In this document: one piece after another, positions 5,943-33,375 of the stretch
Position numbering within the stretch: the first letter of the stretch is position 1
How the letters are laid out: the number at the start of each line of letters is the position of its first letter
Assembly (NCBI GenBank): GCA_902785055.1
Contig: CACZXG010000013.1
Location: 1 to 35,460, forward strand
Reading direction: 5' to 3'
Length of the DNA: 35,460 nt
Source: an uncultured Lachnospiraceae bacterium
Lineage (GTDB): Bacteria; Bacillota; Clostridia; Lachnospirales; Lachnospiraceae
Translations under genes and position numbers: made by a program
Notes under the pieces: model-generated
Told to the model about the DNA's origin: nothing
Seen by the model: only the letters and a program-made list of their open reading frames with translations
Database searches by the model: none

Positions 5943-6452
5943 ATGACACAACAACCGATCGCATTATTGGAACTGGCGCTCTTAGGAGGACTGGGGGCGA
6001 TACTGTTCATCACCGGCATACTGATCAAGACATTAACGGACAGGAAAAACAGCCGATGCACATCGAAAACTGTCGGGAAAGTGATCCGGCACTCATTTAT
6101 GGGTGACGGGCGGATAGCTCCCGTAGTCGAATATGAAGCCGGCGGGACGAAATATACATGCAAAAAAAGATTTGCTGGGATTAAAAAAGTACATAGCACA
6201 AGGCTGGATGAACCTGAGGCATGGGAAGACGAAAAGGGATACCTTCATGTTCGGACTGGAATCATAGCAAACATGCGTCAGCTCGCGCAGGCGCTATGGC
6301 CTGTTGGGTCTGAGATGGAGGTTTACTACAATCCCGATGATCCGGGGAAAAGTTACGTTAATGCTCCGGTTGACAATGCCGTTCTGGGACGTGTGTTTCT
6401 TATTACGGGAGCAGGCATCGCTGTTCTTGGGATCCTGTTGTATTTTCTTTAA
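5943..6452 (+). CDS. DUF3592-family membrane protein
   Basis: This 169-aa protein has a membrane helix at about 10-29, an extended domain, and a second helix at about 148-168. The middle contains the hallmarks of DUF3592: a strand VGKVIRHS, then PVVEYEAGGTKYTCK, and near the end a V/G-x-x-MEVYYNPDDPGKSYV element, the family's x-V-x-Y-x-P-x-x-P motif. The family is widespread and of unknown function, often found near polymorphic-toxin immunity genes in Firmicutes. GGAGGGG immediately upstream is a strong ribosome site. It is the better conserved of two such proteins here (the other at 3007). Confidence 0.75.
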   Translation: MTQQPIALLELALLGGLGAILFITGILIKTLTDRKNSRCTSKTVGKVIRHSFMGDGRIAPVVEYEAGGTKYTCKKRFAGIKKVHSTRLDEPEAWEDEKGYLHVRTGIIANMRQLAQALWPVGSEMEVYYNPDDPGKSYVNAPVDNAVLGRVFLITGAGIAVLGILLYFL

Positions 6453-6472
6453 GTATAAGGAGAAATAAAATG

Positions 6473-7208
6473 ATGAAAAAAAAAGAGTATTGTAGTATTT
6501 CTGGTTGCAGTTATGTTAACGATGGTCGCCTGCGGGAAGAAAACAGAGAAAACACCTGCGCAACCGGAAGTATCATCAGAAGAAACTCCTGCAGCGGAGT
6601 CTAAAGAGAACACGGAAGCAAAGACAGAGCCTGCTGTAGAATCTGTAGTAAGCGAAACGACAGAGACGCCGGACGAAAAGGCTGAGTCAGATAGCATTAA
6701 GTGGGATTATACAGTGCTTGAAGATGGGACGATTTCACTTTATGGCTATGAAACAGACCAAATACCGGAAGTGATGGAAGTCCCTTCCACAGTGGATGGT
6801 AAAACAGTAACAGAGATAGACAGTCTGTTCCTCAATGAAGAGAATGTAAAAAAGGTTATTCTTCCTTCAACATTAAAGAGTATTGGACCGGAAGCATTCA
6901 GAGGATCTGTTTCTATTGAGGAAGTAGAGATTAACAGTATTATAGAAAACATTCAAGCGAAAGCTTTCTATGAGTGTTCCGGAATCAGAAGTCTTACGTT
7001 TCCGGATGGTCTTAAAAAAATCGGCGAAACAGGACTTTTCAGGAATTTCGGCCTGAAGGAACTGCATGTTCCGGCTTCTGTAGAAATGTCGGCAGATGAT
7101 CTCAGCTATGCAGTATTTCTCACAGAAGACACAACGATTTACGCACCGGCAGGATCTGTTTGGGAAAAGTATGCGAATGAAATAGGGTATAAATTTGTCG
7201 CAGAATAA
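6473..7208 (+). CDS. LRR (BspA-like) lipoprotein, frameshifted in an A9 tract at its start
   Basis: From about 6480 the plus strand encodes a classical lipoprotein signal (KKKSIVVFLVAVMLTMVAC) with lipobox cysteine, an acidic low-complexity linker, and a C-terminal BspA/LRR_5 leucine-rich domain with repeats such as VILPSTLKSIGPEAF and LTFPDGLKKIGETGLF. However, the only start codons with a ribosome site (AAGGAG, then ATGATG at 6470-6475) are one base out of frame. They are separated from the signal by nine A's at 6476-6484; one A fewer would restore the frame and give MKKKSIVV. As written, the shifted frame ends after some 44 codons near 6603. The in-frame ATG at 6513 would remove most of the signal. 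The gene is thus phase-variable, rescued by slippage, a fresh pseudogene, or a base-calling error. Confidence 0.7.
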
Positions 7209-14848: not shown

Positions 14849-16552
14849 CTATTTTGCCTTCTCGAAGAGTTCATTCAGAAGGGCGCCGGTCATGGAGCCG
14901 GTCTGGTTGTAGATGATCTCGCCGTTGCGGCCAAGGACTACGGTGTGCGGAAGGATGGACGGGTTGGCGCCGCACAGGGTGTAGAGGCGGTCGTCGTCGG
15001 AGTCGATCGCGCAGGGGAGGCCGATTCCTTTTTTCGCAAGGAATTCAGTCACGTCCTCGAGCGGGTCGGAGGCGTGAATGATGAACACAACTGCATCGTC
15101 AGCATGGGCTTTTTGGAAGCTTTCGAATTCCGGAAGTTCCTGGACGCAGGGGCCGCAGTAGGTTGCCCACATGTTGAGGATGACGACTTTGCCGCGGTGG
15201 TCGGCCAGGTGGAACTGGGTTCCGTCAAGCTGCTCGGCAGTGAAGTCTGCCAGCTGATTGCCGATCGCGGTGCCTATAGGGGCGGTGCTTGCGTAGGTGC
15301 TGCCGGGAGCAGCGGTCTCGCCGGTCTGAGTGCCGTCAGCAGCCTGAGTGCCGTCAGCAGTCTGAGTGCCGTCAGCAGTCTGGGCAGCGTCACCGGCCTG
15401 AGTGCCGTCGGCAGCCTGAGCGGCGTCACCGGTCTGAGTGCCGTCAGCAGCCTGAGCGGCGTCACCGGTCTGAGTGCCGTCACCGGTCTGTGTGCCGTCA
15501 GCAACCTGAGCAGCGTCACCGGTCTGTGAAGCCACGTTTGCCGCCTGCGATTTGGGCAGGGAAGGATCTAACACGTTGAACCACAGGAGGGCAAAACATA
15601 GAACAACGAGGGCAGCTCCCCACGCGGTCTTTCCGTTTTTGGCGCGCTTTGCGGCGGAGTCTTCGCGGTCGTCGGCACAGCCGCAGGCAGGCGCGATGAG
15701 CGTGTGGGTTCCGCATTTGAGGGACAGGGCGTTCTGATTGCAGGCGCCCATGCACTTAGCGCAGTTGATGCACTCGTGGTCGCCGACATGGCGGACATCC
15801 ATCTTGCAGCTGCGCACGCAGGCGCCGCAGCCGTTGCAGCGGTTCTCATCTACTTTGACGCTGATGAGGGCCAGCTTGTTGAAGAGGCCGTAGATCGCGC
15901 CGAGGGGACAGATGAAGCGGCAGAAGGACCTGTAGCAGAAGATGCAGGCAGTTCCGATGATGATCATGATCACGAATTTGCGAGTGAAGAGGATCTTCAG
16001 CATCGCGAAGTAGCTCGTGTTCTTGGGGTTGGAGAGGAGGCCGATGGCGCCCTCAAAAGTACCCGCCGGACAGATGTATTTGCAAAAGCCCGGCACTGCC
16101 AGGTCGTGACGGACCCCGTACCACATGGGGACCGCGACGACGAAAACCGCAAGGATCACATATTTGAGATAGGAGAGCGCGCGCGTCACGCGGCTCTTTT
16201 TGATCTTGGGAGTCGGGATCTTGTGCAGGAGTTCCTGGATCAGGCCCAGGGGGCACAGCCATCCGCAGATCGTTCTGCCGAGAGACAGCCCGAAGATCAT
16301 GATAATGCCCAGCACATACCATCCGGCGCGGTGTCCGGAATAGGCGAGCGCGTTTTGGATCGAGCCCAGAGGGCAGGCTCCGGCGGCGCCGGGGCAGGAG
16401 TAGCAGTTAAAACCGGGGACGCAGACGGCTTTTGCCTTCCCCTGATAGATCTCTCCGTCGATAAAGCCGCGAAGGTGGGCATTGTAGAGGAGAGCGCTGT
16501 ATAGCTGAATCAGCTTCCGTTTGGAAGGGCGGTGGGCTTCCCACCATGTCAT
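14849..16552 (-). CDS. NapH-like 4Fe-4S membrane protein fused to a TlpA thioredoxin domain
   Basis: The 567-aa protein is a natural fusion. The first 230 residues form a NapH/YccM-like membrane part with Cys motifs CPGAAGACPLG, CGWLCPLG, CKYICPAG and CRFICPLG. Two 4Fe-4S ferredoxin sites follow (CNGCGACVRSC and CINCAKCMGAC). Then come one membrane helix near 310-328, a repetitive linker of about 95 residues, and a C-terminal TlpA/ResA-like domain with the CGPC site at about 466-469. The logical function is to bring electrons from cytoplasmic clusters across the membrane to an external disulfide carrier. The ATG at 16552 starts four bases after the stop of the upstream gene; a TTG at 16603 behind AAGGA, overlapping that gene, is a real alternative. 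Clostridial homologues usually lie beside a CD1871A protein, as here. Confidence 0.88.
   Translation of the reverse strand: MTWWEAHRPSKRKLIQLYSALLYNAHLRGFIDGEIYQGKAKAVCVPGFNCYSCPGAAGACPLGSIQNALAYSGHRAGWYVLGIIMIFGLSLGRTICGWLCPLGLIQELLHKIPTPKIKKSRVTRALSYLKYVILAVFVVAVPMWYGVRHDLAVPGFCKYICPAGTFEGAIGLLSNPKNTSYFAMLKILFTRKFVIMIIIGTACIFCYRSFCRFICPLGAIYGLFNKLALISVKVDENRCNGCGACVRSCKMDVRHVGDHECINCAKCMGACNQNALSLKCGTHTLIAPACGCADDREDSAAKRAKNGKTAWGAALVVLCFALLWFNVLDPSLPKSQAANVASQTGDAAQVADGTQTGDGTQTGDAAQAADGTQTGDAAQAADGTQAGDAAQTADGTQTADGTQAADGTQTGETAAPGSTYASTAPIGTAIGNQLADFTAEQLDGTQFHLADHRGKVVILNMWATYCGPCVQELPEFESFQKAHADDAVVFIIHASDPLEDVTEFLAKKGIGLPCAIDSDDDRLYTLCGANPSILPHTVVLGRNGEIIYNQTGSMTGALLNELFEKAK
15300..15530 (-). 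repeat. In-frame 36-bp-type repeats coding the linker of the 4Fe-4S/TlpA protein
   Basis: The stretch codes for repeated blocks of the type DGTQTGDAAQAA on the minus strand, with units of 12 codons and shorter ones of 6. All lengths are multiples of three, so copy number can change without loss of frame. It spans the flexible linker between the membrane helix and the thioredoxin domain. Confidence 0.8.
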
Positions 16553-19485: not shown

Positions 19486-19980
19486 GGAGGCTTCTGGTGG
19501 TGCTTCTGGGGTGCCTTTTTAGCGGAGTTGTGCTTCTGGTGGCGCGAATTTTTGCCGGATTTGTGTTTCCGGTGGCGCAAATTTTCCCGGGTGTCCATCG
19601 GATTTGCCTTTTTTTCTGTGAGGATGGAGCCTATTTGGGCGCTTTTTGCCGGTGGCTACATCGGATTTCGTGCATAGCTTGATGTGGATGGGGCTTATTT
19701 TGGCACTTTTTGCCGGTGGCTACATCGGATTTCGTGTAGGGCTTGATGTGGATGGAGCTCATTTTAGTGCTTTTTGCCGGTGGCTACATCGGATTAGTGG
19801 CATAGCCGTAGGTGGATGGAGAGTTTGTTCACAAGGAAGCTTTTCCATACCATCGGAATTGTCGTAAGCCGTAAGTGGATGTAGGATTTGTGCCTGAGCA
19901 CTTTTTTGCAATACATCCGATTTTTCTCTAAACAATAGTGGATGGAGAGTTGTTTGCTGTCCATCCGATGGAGATGGGTC
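19486..19980 (+). repeat. Tandem repeat array 1, about 64-bp units
   Basis: This non-coding stretch fills the 595 bases between the GDPD stop and the TIR gene. At least six units begin with GGATGGAG or a variant at 19622, 19686, 19750, 19814, 19877 and 19940, a period of 63-64 bases. Each has a T-rich centre with CTTTTT and the word CATCGGATT about 40 bases into the unit. The first three are nearly identical, the later ones drift. Before them, 19501-19590 holds imperfect 30-33 base repeats around TGCTTCTGGTGGCGC. No spacers and no constant palindrome of the CRISPR kind are present. The same family recurs at 28364-28870. Confidence 0.85.
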
Positions 19981-20058: not shown

Positions 20059-21459
20059 TCATTCCATATAAGAATTGATCTTCACATAATCAAGTTCGTT
20101 GTATAGTGTCTGATACTGCTCCAGGATTCTCTCATTATTGGCGTAGGCCTGGAAATCAGTGGGGAACATAAGGAAGAAGTAGCCTTCCGATGTCTTGCCA
20201 AGGTCCATGAAAGAAGGATAGACTTTGTAATCCTGTGTGGGATCAAGGCACAGTCTGAAGAGATAGCCGGCGTTGTCCATACCGTCTACGGCCCAGGCTT
20301 CTCTGCTGGCTGTGTGGTAGAAAGTGACGCGATCGCCTTCATCTATAACTGTTACCTGAGAGCCCCAGGATGCGGGCATCACGATGCGCGGGCCGCGGTC
20401 GAAAGCATAGGTGGTGCTTTCTTCACTGCGGGTGATGGTGTAGTCCCAAGTGGCTGCAGTCGTGTCAGCAGCGGGCTCATCTGTTGTATTCGTGGTGGTG
20501 TCAGCGCCATTCTGGGCGGTGGTGTCAGCGACTTGAGTGGACGCGTCATTCTGAGTGCCAGCCTGAGCATCAGTTTGAGAGGCAGCATTCGCATCGTTTT
20601 GCGCATCAGAACCTGCGTTATTCTGCGCGGCAGCATTGGCGTCATCCTGAGTTCCTGAGCCGGTATCATCTTGAACAGTCGTTGCTGTTACTGCATTCTC
20701 AGGCTCTGCATTTTTCTTCTTTCCGGGGTTTACGAGGAAGAAGATTACCAGGACAGCGACGCAGGCGCCTGCGATGAGAGCAATCTTATTAGGAGCAAGT
20801 TTGGCGCCAGCAGCAGAAGTCCGCGAAGTTCCAACAGAAGAAGTCACAGAAGGCCCTGAACCAGAAGTACTGCCGGCAGCAGAAGAAGTTCCGGAAGCTC
20901 CCATGCGCCCGGAAGCGGCTCCACGCGCCGCAGATGCATCTGCAGCTTTCGCTGAAACCGAACCCCCGGTATGAGCGGCAGCTGCGCCGCTTTCAACTAC
21001 GCCGCTTCCAGCCGCGCCGCTTTCGCCCGCGGCCCGCTTGCAGGGGCGCAGGTGCTGGCAGGTCTCGATTTTGTCGAGGAAGCGCTCCTCGGAGTCGTAG
21101 GTGTAGTAGAGGACGCTCTGCTGGGAGGAGAGCTGCAGCTCGAGGCCGACAGGGAGTTCTATGTCCTCCATGTAGATGGTAAGGACGGGCTTGTTCTTGG
21201 AAAGGGCGAAGTTGATCTCTCTGCGGCAGTTTACGCTGTTAACTGCGCTGGGGGTGAGAACTGAGAGCACCATTTCCGCGCCCAGCAGGTGGTTGGCGAT
21301 GTATTCGGGCCACTCGGAGCCGGGCTCGATGCCCTCGTCGTACCAGATTCGGTAGCCTCTTTCATTGAGCTGTTCGACGAGGCGGAATACAACGGCGCTG
21401 TCTTTGTGGGCGTAGCTGACGAAAATATAAGGTTCTTTTCCTTCGTAAGCCGGAATCAT
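20059..21459 (-). CDS. TIR domain protein with transmembrane helix and extracytoplasmic domain
   Basis: The 466-aa protein starts with a TIR domain (about 8-135): YIFVSYAHKDS, GYRIWYDEGIEPGSEW and SVNCRREINFAL, where Glu81 sits at the place of the catalytic Glu of NAD-cleaving TIRs. A Gly/Ala/Ser linker leads to a single membrane helix at 225-245. Beyond it lie an Asn/Asp/Gln/Ala-rich repetitive spacer (250-335) and a folded domain (335-466) with IVMPASWGSQVTV and GYFFLMFPTDF, a beta-rich form seen in Lachnospiraceae surface lipoproteins. TIR should face the cytoplasm and the last domain the outside. GGGAGG lies before the ATG. It has no partner gene and a strong terminator. A sensor that passes an external signal to a TIR enzyme or scaffold is the natural inference; enzyme activity is unproven. 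Confidence 0.85.
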   Translation of the reverse strand: MIPAYEGKEPYIFVSYAHKDSAVVFRLVEQLNERGYRIWYDEGIEPGSEWPEYIANHLLGAEMVLSVLTPSAVNSVNCRREINFALSKNKPVLTIYMEDIELPVGLELQLSSQQSVLYYTYDSEERFLDKIETCQHLRPCKRAAGESGAAGSGVVESGAAAAHTGGSVSAKAADASAARGAASGRMGASGTSSAAGSTSGSGPSVTSSVGTSRTSAAGAKLAPNKIALIAGACVAVLVIFFLVNPGKKKNAEPENAVTATTVQDDTGSGTQDDANAAAQNNAGSDAQNDANAASQTDAQAGTQNDASTQVADTTAQNGADTTTNTTDEPAADTTAATWDYTITRSEESTTYAFDRGPRIVMPASWGSQVTVIDEGDRVTFYHTASREAWAVDGMDNAGYLFRLCLDPTQDYKVYPSFMDLGKTSEGYFFLMFPTDFQAYANNERILEQYQTLYNELDYVKINSYME

Positions 21460-24610: not shown

Positions 24611-26011
24611 ATGTCAAATACGATACCCCGGGCGTTTAAGAATACCAGGACGGTCCGCAAGATCAGGAATTACATGGATACCGAATTCAACGAAGTCCTG
24701 CACACAACGCTGAATCCGAACGGTCCCGGTGCCATCCGCATCCATCTGATCCCGCCCAAGAAGGAAGAGGACGCCTTCAATCCCAGCATCGCAATCATCA
24801 ATGGAACCGACATTCTGCCGGTGAACTTTGTCTGGGCAATGATGCTGGCGGAACTGATCAAGGAGACGAACCGCTTCGACGGAAAAGAGATCTCAGAAGT
24901 AGATATCTGGAAGATCCTGGCCCGCGCGACGGGCAATGTGCGAAAGATCCTGCCTTTCTTTTCCCGGAGCAGGATCAAGGGCGATATGGAGACGATCTAC
25001 ACGACGATCAAGCAGATCGCTTTCCGGGAGGAAGTGACTACGGACGTCCATTTCATGAGCATCGGCGATTACGCGCCTTTTATGAAGGCGCCGCACCGCA
25101 TGGACCTGATGGTCAGCGCGATGACAAAGAACGGCAAGTGGCACTGCAACCAGAAATGTGTGCACTGTTACGCGGCCGGGCAGACTCTTTCCGACGAGCC
25201 TGAGCTCCCGACTGAGTCGTGGAAAGAGATCCTGGATCGGTGCCGCAGCGCCGGGATTCCCCAGGTGACCTTTACGGGCGGCGAGCCCACCATGCGTGAG
25301 GATCTATTCGAGCTGGTCAAATACGCGCGTTGGTTCATCTCCAGGCTCAACACTAACGGAATTAAGCTCACTCCGGAGTACTGCAAAAAGCTTCGCGAGG
25401 CGGAACTCGACAGCGTCCAGGTCACCTTCTACAGCTGCGATCCGGAGATCCACAACCGGCTGGTCGGGGCTCATCACTACGAAGAAACTCTGGCAGGGAT
25501 CAAAAACGCGCTGGCGCAGGGCCTTTCCGTGAGTATCAACACGCCGCTGTGCACACTCAACCGAGATTATGAAAAGACGCTGGAATTCCTGCACGGACTG
25601 GGTGTCATTTACGTGACCTGTTCCGGTCTCATTACCACAGGAAGTGCCTTAGGAGCCGCTTCGGAAGCACTGCAGCTTAGCAGCGAGGAACTGGAGGCGA
25701 TCCTGCGCAGGTCAACTCAGTATTGTCACGAAAACGGTATGGAGATCGCCTTTACTTCTCCGGGCTGGCTTAACGAGGAGGTTTTCGAGGAACTCAATAT
25801 CCCTTCGCCTTCCTGCGGTGCCTGCCTGTCCAACATGGCCATTACACCCGGAGGAAATGTGGTGCCCTGCCAGAGCTGGCTCGACGATAAGCCGCTCGGA
25901 AATATGCTCGCCGATAAATGGGAAGATATCTGGAACAGCGGAGTCTGTGAGGCCCGCAGGGATTTCTCCGCCCAGCTGACCGGCGAATGCCCCCTTAGGA
26001 GGTACTGCTGA
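24611..26011 (+). CDS. Radical SAM/SPASM enzyme, likely peptide or protein modifier
   Basis: The 466-aa protein has an N-terminal domain of about 170 residues containing IINGTDILPVNFVWAMMLAE, which could be a small winged-helix recognition domain. The radical SAM barrel follows with C179, C183 and C186 (CNQKCVHC), FTGGEPTMRED at 221-231 and RLNTNG at 245-250. The C-terminal SPASM-type region has C402, C405, C420, C446, C460 and C466 to hold extra clusters; C466 is the last residue. Enzymes of this build form thioether or other bonds on Cys-rich peptides. GGGAGG precedes the ATG. Its TGA overlaps the next gene's ATG by one base (TGATG), tying it to the Cys-tailed membrane protein, its likely substrate. 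The exact chemistry is not deducible. Confidence 0.85.
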   Translation: MSNTIPRAFKNTRTVRKIRNYMDTEFNEVLHTTLNPNGPGAIRIHLIPPKKEEDAFNPSIAIINGTDILPVNFVWAMMLAELIKETNRFDGKEISEVDIWKILARATGNVRKILPFFSRSRIKGDMETIYTTIKQIAFREEVTTDVHFMSIGDYAPFMKAPHRMDLMVSAMTKNGKWHCNQKCVHCYAAGQTLSDEPELPTESWKEILDRCRSAGIPQVTFTGGEPTMREDLFELVKYARWFISRLNTNGIKLTPEYCKKLREAELDSVQVTFYSCDPEIHNRLVGAHHYEETLAGIKNALAQGLSVSINTPLCTLNRDYEKTLEFLHGLGVIYVTCSGLITTGSALGAASEALQLSSEELEAILRRSTQYCHENGMEIAFTSPGWLNEEVFEELNIPSPSCGACLSNMAITPGGNVVPCQSWLDDKPLGNMLADKWEDIWNSGVCEARRDFSAQLTGECPLRRYC

Positions 26012-27396
26012 TGAGACAGAATGCCAAAACATTGAATAGAGGGACTGCGCGGGGCACCGCTGCTGCGCGGAACATCGGCGTCACTGAACAGAAGACTGCG
26101 TCCTGGAGGAAATGCCTGGCGTTTCTTATGGCGGGCATGCTGGCTGTGTTTTGCCTGATCATGTCCGCGCCTCTGGCGATGACCGCTAAGGCTGCAGATG
26201 CTACCGACGAAATCGAGCATTTCCTGATCACGGTGGACGTGCAGGAGGACGCGAGCCTTCTGATGACCTACCACATAGACTGGAAGGTACTGGACGATGT
26301 GCAGTACGGGCCGCTGACCTGGGCGGACATCGGCGTTCCCAACAGGAACCACACCGACGTCAAGGCGCTCAGCGACAACATCGATCATATCGAGGACAAA
26401 GGAAATACGCTGGCTATATATTTTGACCAGAGTTATTACGCGGACGATGTGGCGAGCTTCGAGTTCTCCTTTGTCCAGGATCACATGTACCAGATCGACC
26501 GGTTTGCTGAGGGCGAGACGGCCTTTATCTACACGCCGGCCTGGTTTGACGGGATCGAGGTCAAGGACCTGACCATCCGCTGGAACGCGGACAAAGCCGG
26601 TGCATGGCAGCCGGAGTGCGTGCAGGACGGGGGATATCTGGTCTTCTCCGCGAGCCTGTCAGCAGGAGAGCGCTATTCCGTTACAGTGGCTTATCCCAAC
26701 GACGCGTTTGCTTTCTCGGTCGACCGTCAGGCCGATGGAGGCGGCTCCTCGGGCGGGGGAAGCTCGGGCTCGGATTTCACGATGGAAGACTTGCCTTACG
26801 CAATATTGGGACTGGTCTTCTTCCTCATGATCTTTGTAATGCCGATCATATTCTTCGTAAAATTCGTCCGCTGGATCGCCGGTGGACTGGGATTCGGGAG
26901 CGACAGTGATTCTCCCGAAATGGAGAAAAAGATCACCCGCACCAAGATCGTGTACTATGAGAACTGCCCCGGCTGCGGCGCGGGCCGCGTGGAGGGCAAA
27001 GACGAGTGCCCTTACTGCGGACACACCATGATCAAGAGCAAAGAGATCGTGGAAGAGAAGGATCTGGAGAAGCCTGAGAAATACACAAAGACCGGCACTT
27101 ACCGCTACGGGAATTCCCCGGACACCTTTATCCTCGTTAACGTGATCAATACGCCTGTGAGCAGACCTTCGTACAGGTCTTCGGGCGGACGCGGCTCGGG
27201 AACGAGAAGCGGATCCAGGCCCCGTTCCTCCTGCGCTTCTTCCTGCGCATCCTCCTGTGCTTCCAGCTGTGCCTGCGCTTCTTCCTGCGCATGCGCGTGC
27301 GCTTGCGCGTCTTCCGGAAGAGCAGGATGCTCGGTTAAGGAATTCTTCTCGGAGCAGATCCACAGGGGAAGAGTGAAAGTAGAGAGTAAAGAATGA
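26011..27396 (+). CDS. Membrane protein with zinc ribbon and 10-Cys Ser/Cys/Ala tail, probable radical SAM substrate
   Basis: The 461-aa protein has a hydrophobic signal (about 35-60), an extracytoplasmic beta domain (65-235) with ITVDVQEDASLLMTYHIDWK, resembling DUF2207-type domains, a Gly/Ser spacer, and a membrane helix (262-286). On the cytoplasmic side are a zinc ribbon (C319, C322, C333, C336) and a tail in which ten cysteines occur in 33 residues: C408, C412, C416, C420, C422, C426, C428, C430, C432 and C440. They stand in CASS and CA units, with a SSGRAGCS end. This low-complexity Cys tail is typical of a ribosomally made precursor for a radical SAM enzyme. GGAGG inside the upstream gene serves the overlapping ATG. 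The tail probably becomes cross-linked while the rest stays in the membrane; function unknown. Confidence 0.8.
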   Translation: MRQNAKTLNRGTARGTAAARNIGVTEQKTASWRKCLAFLMAGMLAVFCLIMSAPLAMTAKAADATDEIEHFLITVDVQEDASLLMTYHIDWKVLDDVQYGPLTWADIGVPNRNHTDVKALSDNIDHIEDKGNTLAIYFDQSYYADDVASFEFSFVQDHMYQIDRFAEGETAFIYTPAWFDGIEVKDLTIRWNADKAGAWQPECVQDGGYLVFSASLSAGERYSVTVAYPNDAFAFSVDRQADGGGSSGGGSSGSDFTMEDLPYAILGLVFFLMIFVMPIIFFVKFVRWIAGGLGFGSDSDSPEMEKKITRTKIVYYENCPGCGAGRVEGKDECPYCGHTMIKSKEIVEEKDLEKPEKYTKTGTYRYGNSPDTFILVNVINTPVSRPSYRSSGGRGSGTRSGSRPRSSCASSCASSCASSCACASSCACACACASSGRAGCSVKEFFSEQIHRGRVKVESKE

Positions 27397-28363: not shown

Positions 28364-28870
28364 CGGGGGTCCATCGGATTTTGATTTGTGCTTGGGTGGA
28401 TGGAGTGAGTTTTTGGGTGGTCCATCGGATTTGATGGATGATGAATGTGGATGTAGCCAATATTGGCGTTTTTGGCCTGTTGGTTCATCGGATTTGGCGA
28501 TATCCTAAAGTCGATGTAGCATTTGTGCAAGACAAGCTTTTTCGAGACAATCGGATTCAGTCGAAGCTGAAAAAGGATGTATGATTTGAGCAAGACAAGC
28601 TTTTCGAGACAATCGGATTCAGTCGAAGCTGAAAAAGGATGTATGATTTGTGCAAGACAAGCTTTTTCGAGACAATCGGATTCAGTCGAAGCCGAAAAAG
28701 GATGTATGATTTGTGCAAGACAAGCCTTTTTCATACCATCGGATAATGTTGAAACCGAAATCGGATGTAGAGCTTGTGCCCAACAAGCTTTACACACACC
28801 ATCGGATAAAGTCGAGACCGAAAATGGATGTAGGACAAGTGCCAAACAAGCTGACCAAACAGCCCGACAA
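28364..28870 (+). repeat. Tandem repeat array 2, 62-63-bp units
   Basis: The non-coding stretch between the ketopantoate-reductase-like gene and the trp promoter holds eight or so units that begin GGATG[T/G]A at about 28398, 28449, 28512, 28575, 28637, 28700, 28763 and 28826. Each has GTGCAAGACAAGCTTTTT in the centre and ATCGGAT about 40 bases in. Units at 28575, 28637 and 28700 are nearly identical. The layout and several words equal those of array 1 at 19.5-20.0 kb. Because 63 is a multiple of three, long spurious frames run through it on both strands. Confidence 0.88.
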
Positions 28871-30365: not shown

Positions 30366-31145
30366 ATGACGATCCTGGACACGCTGGCCGAACACGCGAG
30401 GGCCAGAACGGAACGGAATAAGGGGCGGGTATCTTTTGACAAGATGAAGAAGCAGGCGCTTTCCATGAATGCGGACACGGGCTATCCTTTTGAGAAGGCG
30501 CTGGGCGCGCTGGGCATTTCTTTTATCTGCGAGGTGAAGAAGGCCTCCCCGTCCAAGGGGCTGATCGCAGCGGAATTCCCGTACCTGTCGATTGCGCGGG
30601 AGTACGAGGCGGCGGGCGCCGCGGCCATTTCCTGCCTGACGGAGCCGGATTTCTTCCTGGGGAGCGACGAGTATCTGCGCGAGATCGCCGCTGCGGTGAA
30701 GATCCCCGTCCTGCGCAAAGACTTCACGGTGGATCCCTATATGATCTACGAGGCGAAAGTATTGGGCGCTTCGGCTGTTCTGCTCATCTGCGCGATCCTT
30801 TCGGACGAAGAGCTCCTCGAATATGGCAAAATAGCGCGCGCCCTCGGCCTCTCCGCCTTAGTGGAGGCGCACGACGAGAGGGAAGTGGAGCGGGCGCTGC
30901 GCGTAGAGCATGGCATAGTCGGCGTCAACAACAGAGATCTGAAGTCTTTCACCGTGGACTGCAATAATTCGGTGCGGCTCAGGAAACTGGTCCCTGACGA
31001 CAGACTCTTTGTCTCGGAGAGCGGGATCCGGACGGCGGAGGACATCGCGGTCCTGCGGCAGAACGGAACTGACGCGGTCCTCATCGGCGAGACGCTGATG
31101 AGGAACCCGGACAAGGCAGCGGCGCTGAGGGCGCTCAGAGGGTAA
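30366..31145 (+). CDS. trpC: Indole-3-glycerol phosphate synthase
   Basis: The 259-aa enzyme closes the indole ring from CdRP. Family motifs are FICEVKKASPSKG (catalytic Lys), AISCLTEPDFFLGS, VLRKDFTVDPYMIYEA, LVEAHDEREVERAL, VGVNNRDLKSF and FVSESGIRTAEDI. It starts at the base after the trpD stop (TAAATG), with GAGGAGG inside the end of trpD, so translation is coupled. Its own stop codon (31143-31145) overlaps the first base pairs of a repeat block that separates it from trpF. Confidence 0.97.
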   Translation: MTILDTLAEHARARTERNKGRVSFDKMKKQALSMNADTGYPFEKALGALGISFICEVKKASPSKGLIAAEFPYLSIAREYEAAGAAAISCLTEPDFFLGSDEYLREIAAAVKIPVLRKDFTVDPYMIYEAKVLGASAVLLICAILSDEELLEYGKIARALGLSALVEAHDEREVERALRVEHGIVGVNNRDLKSFTVDCNNSVRLRKLVPDDRLFVSESGIRTAEDIAVLRQNGTDAVLIGETLMRNPDKAAALRALRG

Positions 31146-31281
31146 AGGTACCCCAGAGGTCGGATGCGGCGCGCGCCGCAGCGGACGCAAAGGTACCCCA
31201 GAGATCAGATGAAGTAAAGGTACCCCAGAGGTCGGATGCGGTGTGCGGCGCAGCGGACGCAAAGGTACCCCAGAGGTGGAA
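31144..31281 (+). repeat. trpC-trpF junction repeats
   Basis: AAAGGTACCCCAGAG occurs at 31144, 31189, 31216 and 31261. Copies 1 and 3, and 2 and 4, are exactly 72 bases apart, so a 72-base block with two inner copies has been duplicated. The last copy gives AGAGGTGG, the ribosome site of trpF. The first and third copies are each followed by an ATG (31164 and about 31236) that opens a short frame of 17-18 codons; the second such frame runs into the start of trpF. Confidence 0.9.
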
Positions 31282-32004
31282 ATGATGTGTGAGACCGGGA
31301 TCAAGATCTGCGGGATGCGCAGGGTAGAAGATATCGAGGCGGCGAACGCCTGCAGGCCCGATTACATAGGGTTTATCCTGTCTCCGGGATTCAGGAGATC
31401 GGTGACGCCGGAAGCCGCAGAGCAGCTGGCCCGGAGGCTGGCGCCGGGGATCTTGAAAGTCGGCGTTTTCGTCAATGAAAGTGTTGAGAATGTTGCGGCT
31501 GCGGCCGGTTTTCTGGATATGATCCAGCTGCATGGCAAAGAAGACAACGCCTATATCAGAGACCTCAGAGGTCGATTGACGACAACAAACGACCTCAGAG
31601 GTCGATTGACGACAACAAACGACCCCAGAGGTCGGTTGATGACAAACGACCCCAAAGGTCGGTTGTTAATACAGGCGTTCCGCATAAGATGTGCTAATGA
31701 CCTGAAGAGGGCGATGGAGAGTGAAGCGGACTATCTTTTGCTCGATAATGGAACGGGAACCGGGGAGGCTTTTGACTGGTCGCTGATCAGGGATGCAGAG
31801 GCACTAAAGCGCGGAGAAGCCGCAAGACCGTGGATTCTGGCAGGCGGGCTTGGGCCCGATAATGTGGCGGAAGCCGTGCGGAGGTTCAGGCCGTATGCGG
31901 TGGATCTGAGCAGCGGAGCGGAGACGGACGGATGGAAGGATCCGGAAAAGATGGCAAGGTGTGTGCAGGCAGTGAGAGAAGCCGGCAGAGAAACCGGCCG
32001 GTGA
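31282..32004 (+). CDS. trpF: Phosphoribosylanthranilate isomerase with an in-frame repeat insertion
   Basis: The 240-aa enzyme isomerises PRA to CdRP. It has IKICGMRRVEDIEAA (catalytic Cys), GFILSPGFRRSV, VGVFVNES, DMIQLHGKED, DYLLLDNGTGTGEAFDW (catalytic Asp), LAGGLGPDNV and VDLSSGAET. Normal TrpF proteins have about 200 residues; the extra length comes from residues 94-128, where LRGRLTTTND-like blocks repeat four times between helix 3 (DNAYIRDLRG) and strand 4 (IQAFRI). This loop is on the barrel face away from the active site side strands' centre, so the enzyme may still work. The ATG at 31282 follows AGAGGTGG from the junction repeat. Another in-frame start at 31243 lies within that repeat and is less likely. 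Confidence 0.93.
   Translation: MMCETGIKICGMRRVEDIEAANACRPDYIGFILSPGFRRSVTPEAAEQLARRLAPGILKVGVFVNESVENVAAAAGFLDMIQLHGKEDNAYIRDLRGRLTTTNDLRGRLTTTNDPRGRLMTNDPKGRLLIQAFRIRCANDLKRAMESEADYLLLDNGTGTGEAFDWSLIRDAEALKRGEAARPWILAGGLGPDNVAEAVRRFRPYAVDLSSGAETDGWKDPEKMARCVQAVREAGRETGR
31561..31665 (+). repeat. 30-bp tandem repeats inside trpF
   Basis: Two perfect 30-base copies (31561-31590 and 31591-31620) are followed by a 27-base copy (31621-31647) and an 18-base part copy. Each starts with GACCTCAGAGGTC or a variant, a 13-base inverted repeat. All units are multiples of three, so the frame is kept. CCCAGAGGTCGG is shared with the repeats of the trpC-trpF junction. Confidence 0.95.
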
Positions 32005-32092: not shown

Positions 32093-33277
32093 ATGTCCAG
32101 AGGCAGATTTGGAAAATTCGGCGGTCAGTATGTTCCGGAGACACTGATGAACGAGCTGATCCGGCTGGAGGAGCAGTACAACTTTTATAAGAAAGATCCC
32201 GCATTTAACGCAGAGCTGACAAAGCTTCTGAATGAGTACGCGGGCAGGCCTTCCCGCCTTTATTATGCGGAGAAGATGACAAAGGACCTGGGCGGAGCAA
32301 AGATCTATCTCAAGAGGGAAGATCTCAATCATACCGGCGCCCACAAGATCAACAATTGCATCGGGCAGGTGCTTTTGGCCAAAAAAATGGGTAAAACGCG
32401 GGTGATCGCGGAGACCGGCGCGGGACAGCACGGCGTTGCGACTGCGACGGTGGCGGCACTTCTTGGTATGGAGTGCGAAGTTTTTATGGGGAAGCTGGAC
32501 TGCGAGAGGCAGAGGCTCAATGTTTACCGCATGGAGCTGCTGGGCGCGAAGGTGCATCCGGTGGAGAGCGGAACGCAGGTGCTCAAAGACGCAGTCAATG
32601 AGACTATGCGCGAATGGGCCGGCAGAGTGGATGACACGCATTATGTGCTTGGCTCAGTGATGGGACCGCATCCTTTCCCTACGATCGTGAGGGATTTCCA
32701 GGCGGTCATCTCCAGAGAAGCCCGGCAGCAGATCCTCGAGGCTCAGGGGAAACTCCCGGATGCGGTGGTCGCCTGTGTGGGCGGCGGCAGCAACGCCATG
32801 GGAATGTTCTATCACTTTATTGGCGATGAGGGCGTGAAACTGATCGGCTGCGAAGCGGCCGGGCGCGGGATCGAGACCGGGGAGCACGCGGCGACGATCG
32901 CGGACGGAAGTCTCGGGGTATTTCATGGGATGAAGTCACTGTTTTGCCAGAATGAGTATGGGCAGATCAAAGAAGTCTACTCGATCTCGGCCGGCCTCGA
33001 CTACCCCGGAATCGGCCCTGAGCATGCTTGGCTGCATGATATCGGCCGCGCAGAGTATGTGCCGGTCACGGACGACGAGGCAGTGGAGGCCTTCGAATAT
33101 CTTGCGCGGACGGAAGGCATCATTTGCGCGATCGAGAGCGCGCACGCGGTGGCGCAGGCCAGGAAGATCGCTCCTTTGATGAGCAGCGACCAGAGCATGA
33201 TCATCTGCCTGTCGGGCCGGGGCGACAAGGACGTCGCGGCGATCGCCCGCTACAGGGGCATTCAGATTTCGGACTAA
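32093..33277 (+). CDS. trpB: Tryptophan synthase beta subunit
   Basis: The 394-aa PLP enzyme joins indole and serine. It has [13 protein letters not shown] at the start, [14 protein letters not shown] with the PLP lysine, [13 protein letters not shown], the [14 protein letters not shown] phosphate-binding loop and a C-terminal LSGRGDKDV. This is the TrpB1 type, which works with TrpA. GGGAGG precedes the ATG. The 88 bases between trpF and trpB consist of Gly/Cys-codon-like GCCGGCAGAGAAA word repeats with no gene. The last codons (QISD and stop) are copied twice downstream. Confidence 0.98.
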
Positions 33278-33359
33278 TTCAGATTGCCCGATGCAGGGCA
33301 TTCAGATTTCGGACTAATTTAGATTGCCCGTTGCTGGGTTTTCAGATTTCGGACTAATT
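33241..33359 (+). repeat. Three 40-bp copies of the trpB 3' end
   Basis: TTCAGATTTCGGACTAATT starts at 33261, 33301 and 33341, exactly 40 bases apart, each preceded by a version of ATTGCCCG[A/C/T]T. The first copy is the trpB end with its stop; the other two fill most of the gap to trpA. The unit is not a multiple of three and lies outside coding sequence apart from the first copy. Confidence 0.92.
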
Positions 33360-33375
33360 CAAGGAGGGGCTTTCG

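Follow-up and report, generated by a model that had tools for sequence, protein, structure and literature searches.

Radical S-adenosylmethionine (SAM) enzymes with a SPASM domain and a recognition element (RRE) of the kind found in maturases of ribosomally synthesized and post-translationally modified peptides (RiPPs) recognise a ribosomally made substrate, at whose residues they create new bonds. The full SPASM domain is described by a CX2CX5CX3C motif with assigned ligand roles. Here we describe a two-gene locus in which a radical SAM/SPASM enzyme is paired with a membrane protein bearing a cysteine-rich C-terminal tail. It lies in a 35,460-nucleotide stretch (hereafter the window; positions 1–35,460 of contig CACZXG010000013.1, assembly GCA_902785055.1) from an uncultured Lachnospiraceae gut bacterium, whose genome comprises 3.13 Mb in 196 contigs and is 87% complete. 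We propose, with a probability of roughly 0.6, that the enzyme links the cysteines of this cytoplasmic tail to nearby alanines through thioethers, and that the product stays bound to the membrane. The system works like the maturation step of sactipeptides and ranthipeptides, yet it is not a member of those systems, because a small precursor and processing genes were looked for and not found. Among the papers listed in a search of open-licence literature, which leaves most subscription journals outside, none describes the enzyme/Cys-tail pair by title or abstract.

Several described systems resemble parts of this locus. SkfB, the sactisynthase of the sporulation killing factor, shares a modular build of RRE, radical SAM domain and single-cluster Twitch domain (PMC6231123, available text). 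Its substrate SkfA, however, is a short peptide, whereas the candidate substrate here is, in intact loci, an integral membrane protein of 300–500 residues and not a small precursor peptide, with its Cys region near the C-terminal end and no processing genes beside it. CteB, other SCIFF/ranthipeptide maturases and SuiB are alike in being top fold matches of the enzyme (we take entries 5wgg and 5why to be CteB). According to the accessible parts of the sources, CteB and CteA yield a thioether RiPP (PMC8326336), and enzymes of the CteB/SuiB type differ from ours in having a full SPASM domain with two auxiliary clusters (PMC6231123); their substrates are small and have no membrane carrier.

By analogy, the locus also resembles repeat-motif radical SAM systems and the protein-level chemistry of QhpD. 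QhpD forms thioethers inside a protein subunit, QhpC of quinohaemoprotein amine dehydrogenase, but QhpC is a 9 kDa enzyme subunit with Asp/Glu acceptors, and the available text describes no repeat tail or membrane anchor for it (PMC8172795). TvgA/TvgB with TVGG repeats, an Asp-Cys repeat peptide and His-Xaa-Ser peptides likewise place a low-complexity repeat beside a radical SAM enzyme; these precursors are peptides with other motifs, TvgB makes cyclopropylglycine, and no membrane carrier is described in the portion of the source at hand (PMC9062424). On the substrate side, DUF2207 proteins such as SMU.243 of Streptococcus mutans have a large N-terminus outside and a Gly/Ser-rich C-terminus inside (PMC10457818, available text). 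In our locus, by contrast, the C-terminal stretch is a conserved Cys-Ala repeat tied to a dedicated radical SAM gene.

The cassette has the following features, with membrane-helix, topology and auxiliary-cluster ligand assignments that we infer from hydrophobicity and sequence reading:

24611–26011, + strand: radical SAM/SPASM enzyme gene, 466 residues (Pfam PF04055 and PF13186; AlphaFold2 predicted local distance difference test, pLDDT, 88.8; fold nearest SuiB and SkfB)
24692–25021, + strand: N-terminal domain of the enzyme, residues 28–137, predicted strands followed by three helices, RRE-like by fold only
25145–25168, + strand: CNQKCVHC, the CX3CX2C radical SAM cluster motif with Cys 179/183/186, invariant in 57/57 aligned enzymes
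25814–25990, + strand: reduced SPASM region, Cys 402/405/420/460, putative ligands of one auxiliary cluster
25997–26013, + strand: AGGAGG ribosome-binding-like site and TGATG stop/start overlap, read from the sequence
26011–27396, + strand: membrane partner with Cys tail, presumed substrate, 461 residues (sequence and model)
26089–26181, + strand: predicted N-terminal signal or anchor helix, residues 27–57 (model)
26206–26697, + strand: putative extracytoplasmic beta-sandwich, residues 66–229, distantly DUF2207-like (pLDDT mostly >90)
26782–26880, + strand: helix at residues 258–290 (model), predicted from hydrophobicity to lie in the membrane
26920–27156, + strand: zinc-ribbon-like region, residues 304–382, Cys 319/322/333/336 (model), cytoplasmic by predicted topology
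27232–27330, + strand: Cys tail, residues 408–440, CASSCASSCASSCACASSCACACACASSGRAGC, 10 Cys in 33 residues
27331–27348, + strand: SVKEFF after the tail (S-x-K-[DE]-[FL]-[FY] in most relatives), with Lys in 58/58 tails

Tail and enzyme occur together. Scanning genome contigs by pattern for close enzyme relatives yielded 60 related loci, 50–99% identical, mostly from Lachnospiraceae and other Clostridia and many from ruminant gut. The tail adjoins the enzyme in 56 of them; in the remaining four (L011, L015, L024, L036) the contig ends inside the partner gene, in L011 within the Cys tail itself. Among the loci with the pair is L057, from the cultured Roseburia inulinivorans DSM 16841. We also searched 250 genomes of the window's family, its own included, with three separate profiles covering the tail only, the enzyme (E <= 1e-60) and the ectodomain only. 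The tail profile matched 22 genomes and the enzyme profile the same 22, with both matches side by side on one contig in all 22. Tail homologues regularly lacking the enzyme, which would speak against the coupling drawn in the first-pass annotation of this DNA, were not found in these samples. The ectodomain profile matched the same 22 genomes plus G082, where a 281-residue homologue has no Cys tail and the genome no enzyme match at E <= 1e-60. Thus, in the family sample, tail and enzyme come and go together, and the ectodomain can exist without both.

In a search of the window's genome, each gene turned up in a single full-length copy, and within the window's own genus the enzyme is patchy, present in 28 of 61 genomes and in 8 of the 25 more complete ones. 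No plasmid-borne copies appeared in a plasmid collection at E <= 1e-30. Distances among the enzymes correlate with those among the ectodomains (Mantel r 0.90, 23 pairs), a value that shared descent of both genes alone could give.

The tail has a repeat grammar. The ten Cys in 33 residues first noted from the sequence near the partner's C-terminus are there at residues 408–440, and the sequence runs on past them as GRAGCS-VKEFF. A simple binomial with the local Cys frequency of 2.1% gives a probability of 9e-10 for at least 10 Cys in a given 33-mer. Among the 632 open reading frames (ORFs) of the window and the 60 loci, 53 contain a run of at least three consecutive C[AV] units, and every one of these encodes the partner. 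We compared 58 tails, gathered via the GRAGC motif, whose invariance in that set is therefore partly by construction. In the stretch before GRAGC, the residue after Cys is Ala at 450 of 462 positions (Val at 11, Thr at one), and the CACA preceding GRAGC is invariant. Invariant Cys, Ala, Gly and Arg positions use every synonymous codon, so conservation of the tail acts on the protein. Within the 60 loci, a laxer pattern (G.AGC or CACACA) brought up no further tail type. Among 29 non-redundant partners (<70% identical), mean conservation is highest in residues 420–446 (0.86), followed by the ectodomain (0.62), the zinc-ribbon region (0.55) and linker plus membrane helix (0.31). The SVKEFF-type motif is a possible follower (recognition) element.

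The two genes are also tightly arranged. The enzyme's TGA (26009–26011) shares one base with the partner's ATG at 26011 (TGATG, 26009–26013), as had been noticed at first reading, and AGGAGG lies at 25997–26002, eight bases 5' of that ATG. TGATG recurs in 24 of 50 downstream partners of the related loci (the broken L053 and L058 included; L014 and L016 fall outside the cluster used), and 18 more have an in-frame ATG that overlaps the enzyme stop by 1 or 4 bases, for a total of 42/50 counted from the listed starts. In four loci the order is reversed, with five partners preceding the enzyme gene; L060 has two of these in tandem. Such tandem Cys-tailed genes upstream of a single enzyme gene were seen at L060 4096–6023 and in genome G487 (C13), and one of the tails has CACACAYACACA, in which one Cys is replaced by Tyr.

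Nothing else travels with the pair. Gene-family clustering across 61 sources (the 60 loci and the window, up to 6 kb either side and shorter at contig ends) placed the enzyme family in 59, the partner family in 56 and the next family in only 5. No protease, transporter or second modification gene recurs in these flanks, in keeping with the initial remark that protease and export genes were missing. Two candidate free RiPP peptides were rejected: a frameshift has broken up a normal partner gene in L058, and the 67–72-residue tail peptide there is that gene's end; the 71-residue frame of L053 is the remnant of an internal deletion that also took the enzyme end. At this decaying L053 locus (5992–7162), the deletion fuses the first part of the enzyme gene with the tail. 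A promoter and terminator scan of the cassette gave values near those of shuffled sequence and was left unused.

The enzyme is a radical SAM/SPASM protein, as first proposed, with the small correction that its SPASM domain is reduced. The window's enzyme matches Radical_SAM (PF04055, E 3.6e-26) and SPASM (PF13186, E 2.8e-07), and both domains are present in 57/57 aligned enzymes. By our reading of the sequence, the SPASM region carries Cys for one auxiliary cluster; Cys 402, 420 and 460 are found in 57/57 enzymes and Cys 405 in 56/57. Cys 314, a candidate hydrogen donor, is likewise present in 57/57. None of the 25 curated NCBIfam radical SAM models listed, out of 61 matched, reached its cut-off (best 106 bits against 500).

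The predicted fold is nearest to SuiB and SkfB, both RiPP maturases; anSME and viperins follow closely. That the nearest folds form crosslinks accords with the early comparison of this layout to thioether-forming peptide systems. SkfB is the top Foldseek match of the model and the best sequence and profile match in the PDB. This sequence match spans residues 174–437 and leaves the N-terminal domain outside, whereas the SuiB and SkfB fold alignments take that domain in, beginning at model residue 42 or 30. An RRE was not recovered by sequence: profile comparison of the N-terminal domain was not significant (E 0.11), and a PDB profile search with it returned nothing significant. One divergent relative matches PqqD at E 0.012, below cut-off. 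An anti-phage role was considered for the enzyme and set aside; what turned up were superfamily-level viperin hits only, of at most 58 bits, to the radical SAM part.

The partner is predicted to be anchored in the membrane, which supports the earlier view of a membrane-held substrate. Because DUF2207 proteins have their C-terminus inside (PMC10457818, in the text available), the tail would lie on the enzyme's side of the membrane. The relation to DUF2207 (PF09972) is distant: 13 of 22 partners match weakly (best E 0.0016), the window's partner is not among the listed matches, and the DUF2207 profile found no match in the window's genome at E <= 0.1. The tail is modelled at low confidence. For the partner, Foldseek returned generic beta-sandwich matches (E >= 6e-07, template modelling score about 0.3) to oligosaccharyltransferase complex chains, leukotriene A4 hydrolase and M1 aminopeptidases, to which we attach no functional meaning. 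The zinc ribbon named in the first-pass annotation stands in part. The model has a zinc-ribbon-like region with CxxC pairs at 319/322 and 333/336, but zinc-ribbon profiles match only 3–4 of 22 partners, the window's own not being one of them. Because the region is missing from 9 of 22 aligned partners, we place it outside the core mechanism.

We picture a self-contained, two-gene modification system. A cytosolic enzyme, RRE-like in its N-terminal domain and carrying a reduced SPASM domain, would act on a dedicated substrate that holds a folded domain outside and its C-terminal tail in the cytoplasm. In the tail, units of Cys-Ala and of Cys-Ala-Ser-Ser would lead up to a closing GRAGCS-x-K-[DE]-F, and coupled translation would bring the tail side by side with the enzyme. 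The enzyme would then take hydrogens from tail residues, most likely the Ala after Cys, and join Cys sulphur to those residues, producing several thioether rings. Neither cut nor exported afterwards, the tail may persist as a rigid, protease-resistant, thiol-derived knob beneath the membrane, where it could provide the outer domain with an element for metal binding, redox work or protein docking. The evidence suggests a permanent structure knitted onto the cytoplasmic side of the cell's own membrane, not a secreted peptide. Alanine is a sactionine acceptor in ruminococcin C1 and thuricin CD, although AlbA variants do not accept it (PMC8172795, available text). That the tail is in some way the enzyme's substrate is very probable.

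The enzyme might act on the tail otherwise than by thioethers, for instance by epimerising alternate residues to D-amino acids so that the Cys-Ala run forms a beta-helix. The idea draws on gramicidin and polytheonamide. Tails spaced as CASS or CHSA do not alternate. Moreover, the fold score of EpeE against the enzyme is well below those of SuiB and SkfB, and Cys 314, for all its conservation in the aligned set, is Val in G562 and missing in G638 as read from the sequences. We regard such other chemistry on the tail as unlikely.

Rather unlikely, too, is an unmodified tail that serves as a metal or iron-sulphur Cys cluster, with the enzyme modifying another substrate and the two forming a functional pair such as a sensor or electron donor and its enzyme. 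Ten close Cys in the reducing cytosol could bind soft metals, and pairing by itself does not prove modification. Yet the Ala after each Cys is conserved as well, which metal binding does not need, and the tail repeat switches type between branches while the enzyme partner remains. Nor does a third recurring gene in the window's family supply another substrate.

A classical RiPP, in which an unlinked protease would cut the tail for release or export, we hold to be improbable. The enzyme fold and Cys-rich substrate are RiPP-like, and leader-like recognition could lie in the linker. However, recurring protease or transporter genes are absent, the predicted topology places the tail in the cytoplasm, and a membrane protein whose ectodomain is conserved (0.62) would make an odd leader. 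Tail and membrane part also share one frame in every listed partner except the frameshifted L058 and the deleted L053. The notion that the genes are chance neighbours, and that repeat expansion produced the Cys run as a low-complexity artefact, fits a short tandem repeat of 12-nucleotide period within the tail DNA (27225–27264) but is refuted by the same 22/250 genomes found with both profiles, the codon variety at conserved positions and a core conserved over 29 non-redundant proteins.

Sampling also reached beyond the family. A class sample of 391 genomes, the window's included, has the tail in 11, with the enzyme next to or near it in nine; in G443 and G481 the contigs end inside the partner. 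A transposase gene lies between enzyme and partner in G562, and GRVGC replaces GRAGC in G554, G562 and G481. Among 398 genomes of the phylum, only the window and, weakly, G638 (E 8e-4) came up. G638 has a divergent counterpart of the pair, in which the membrane protein ends in GGGSSCACACACACASSGGCT and a radical SAM/SPASM gene begins where the membrane protein's gene ends. Searching 101 genomes around G638 with its enzyme gave 20 matches at E <= 1e-30: the best eight (E <= 1.4e-47) all have an adjacent Cys-repeat tail, whereas no such tail was seen beside the other twelve (E >= 5.8e-37) within the sequence read. The tails in this set are of the types (CA)n, CACVSCACACVSCACACACAGGGGAGC and (CHSA)n. 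Other classes of the phylum have divergent tails next to related enzymes, of the forms (CA)n, CACVSCACA and (CHSA)n.

Among 101 genomes around G717 there were 16 matches, with a tail in the locus in 13, one of those cut by the contig end. The other three comprise a contig end, an assembly gap in the partner and G831. The G831 locus (L173 1854–2438) is decaying, with an enzyme fragment and neither partner nor Cys repeat in the 5 kb read. The 101 genomes around G640 gave five matches, all in already-known genomes. Enzymes of the divergent branches match the enzyme profile of the window's family at E 1.1e-38 or better. With the ectodomain profile, partners of the G717 and G554/G562 types match at E 3.4e-16 or better; for the G638 type the best match has E 0.0015 (L136), and the G640 type gives none. 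The (CHSA)n branch holds a possible exception to the two-gene rule: both loci read have a third gene beside the enzyme (L132 5957–6934, 325 residues; L133 2310–3143, 277 residues), hydrophobic and alike by eye. The L133 protein has no significant Pfam match.

We give even odds to a broader statement, that these loci form a widespread class in which a radical SAM maturase knits cytoplasmic Cys-dipeptide tails of DUF2207-like membrane proteins into a permanent structure, polycyclic or metal-holding, that is never released from the cell. On this view (CA)n, CASS, CACVS and (CHSA)n would be separate tail languages that evolved on the same principle, and the products would be built-in membrane cofactors and not natural products. 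If so, radical SAM RiPP chemistry would reach permanent membrane components through a maturase dedicated to an integral membrane protein's tail; the substrates in the literature compared, as far as its available text goes, are small precursor peptides or, with QhpD, a small enzyme subunit. Such a maturase would also give a first biochemical handle on DUF2207-like proteins, whose function is unknown according to the accessible part of PMC10457818. The system is minimal, with two overlapping genes in about a tenth of sampled family genomes (22/250), and offers unlike tail variants to compare.

Elsewhere in the window, an ORF at 31243–32004 (+), which we presume to be trpF-like, contains an in-frame insertion (31561–31665) of about 3.6 copies of the 30-nucleotide unit GACCTCAGAGGTCGATTGACGACAACAAAC. 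Related GACCTCTGGGGT elements lie at 31142–31275, just upstream, and peptides resembling the unit's translation occur on another contig of the same genome (L007). The unit looks like a short interspersed repeat that tolerates translation. A 63-nucleotide tandem repeat of about five copies (28513–28832) lies in the gap after the panE-like gene, and other tandem arrays lie at 15321–15526, 19622–19821 and 33241–33361 (18 rows in the repeat list). Finally, a TIR-domain protein at 20059–21459 (−) matches PF13676 at E 1.2e-20 and several defence TIR families weakly, and has a long low-complexity Ala/Ser/Gly/Thr region together with a hydrophobic stretch.

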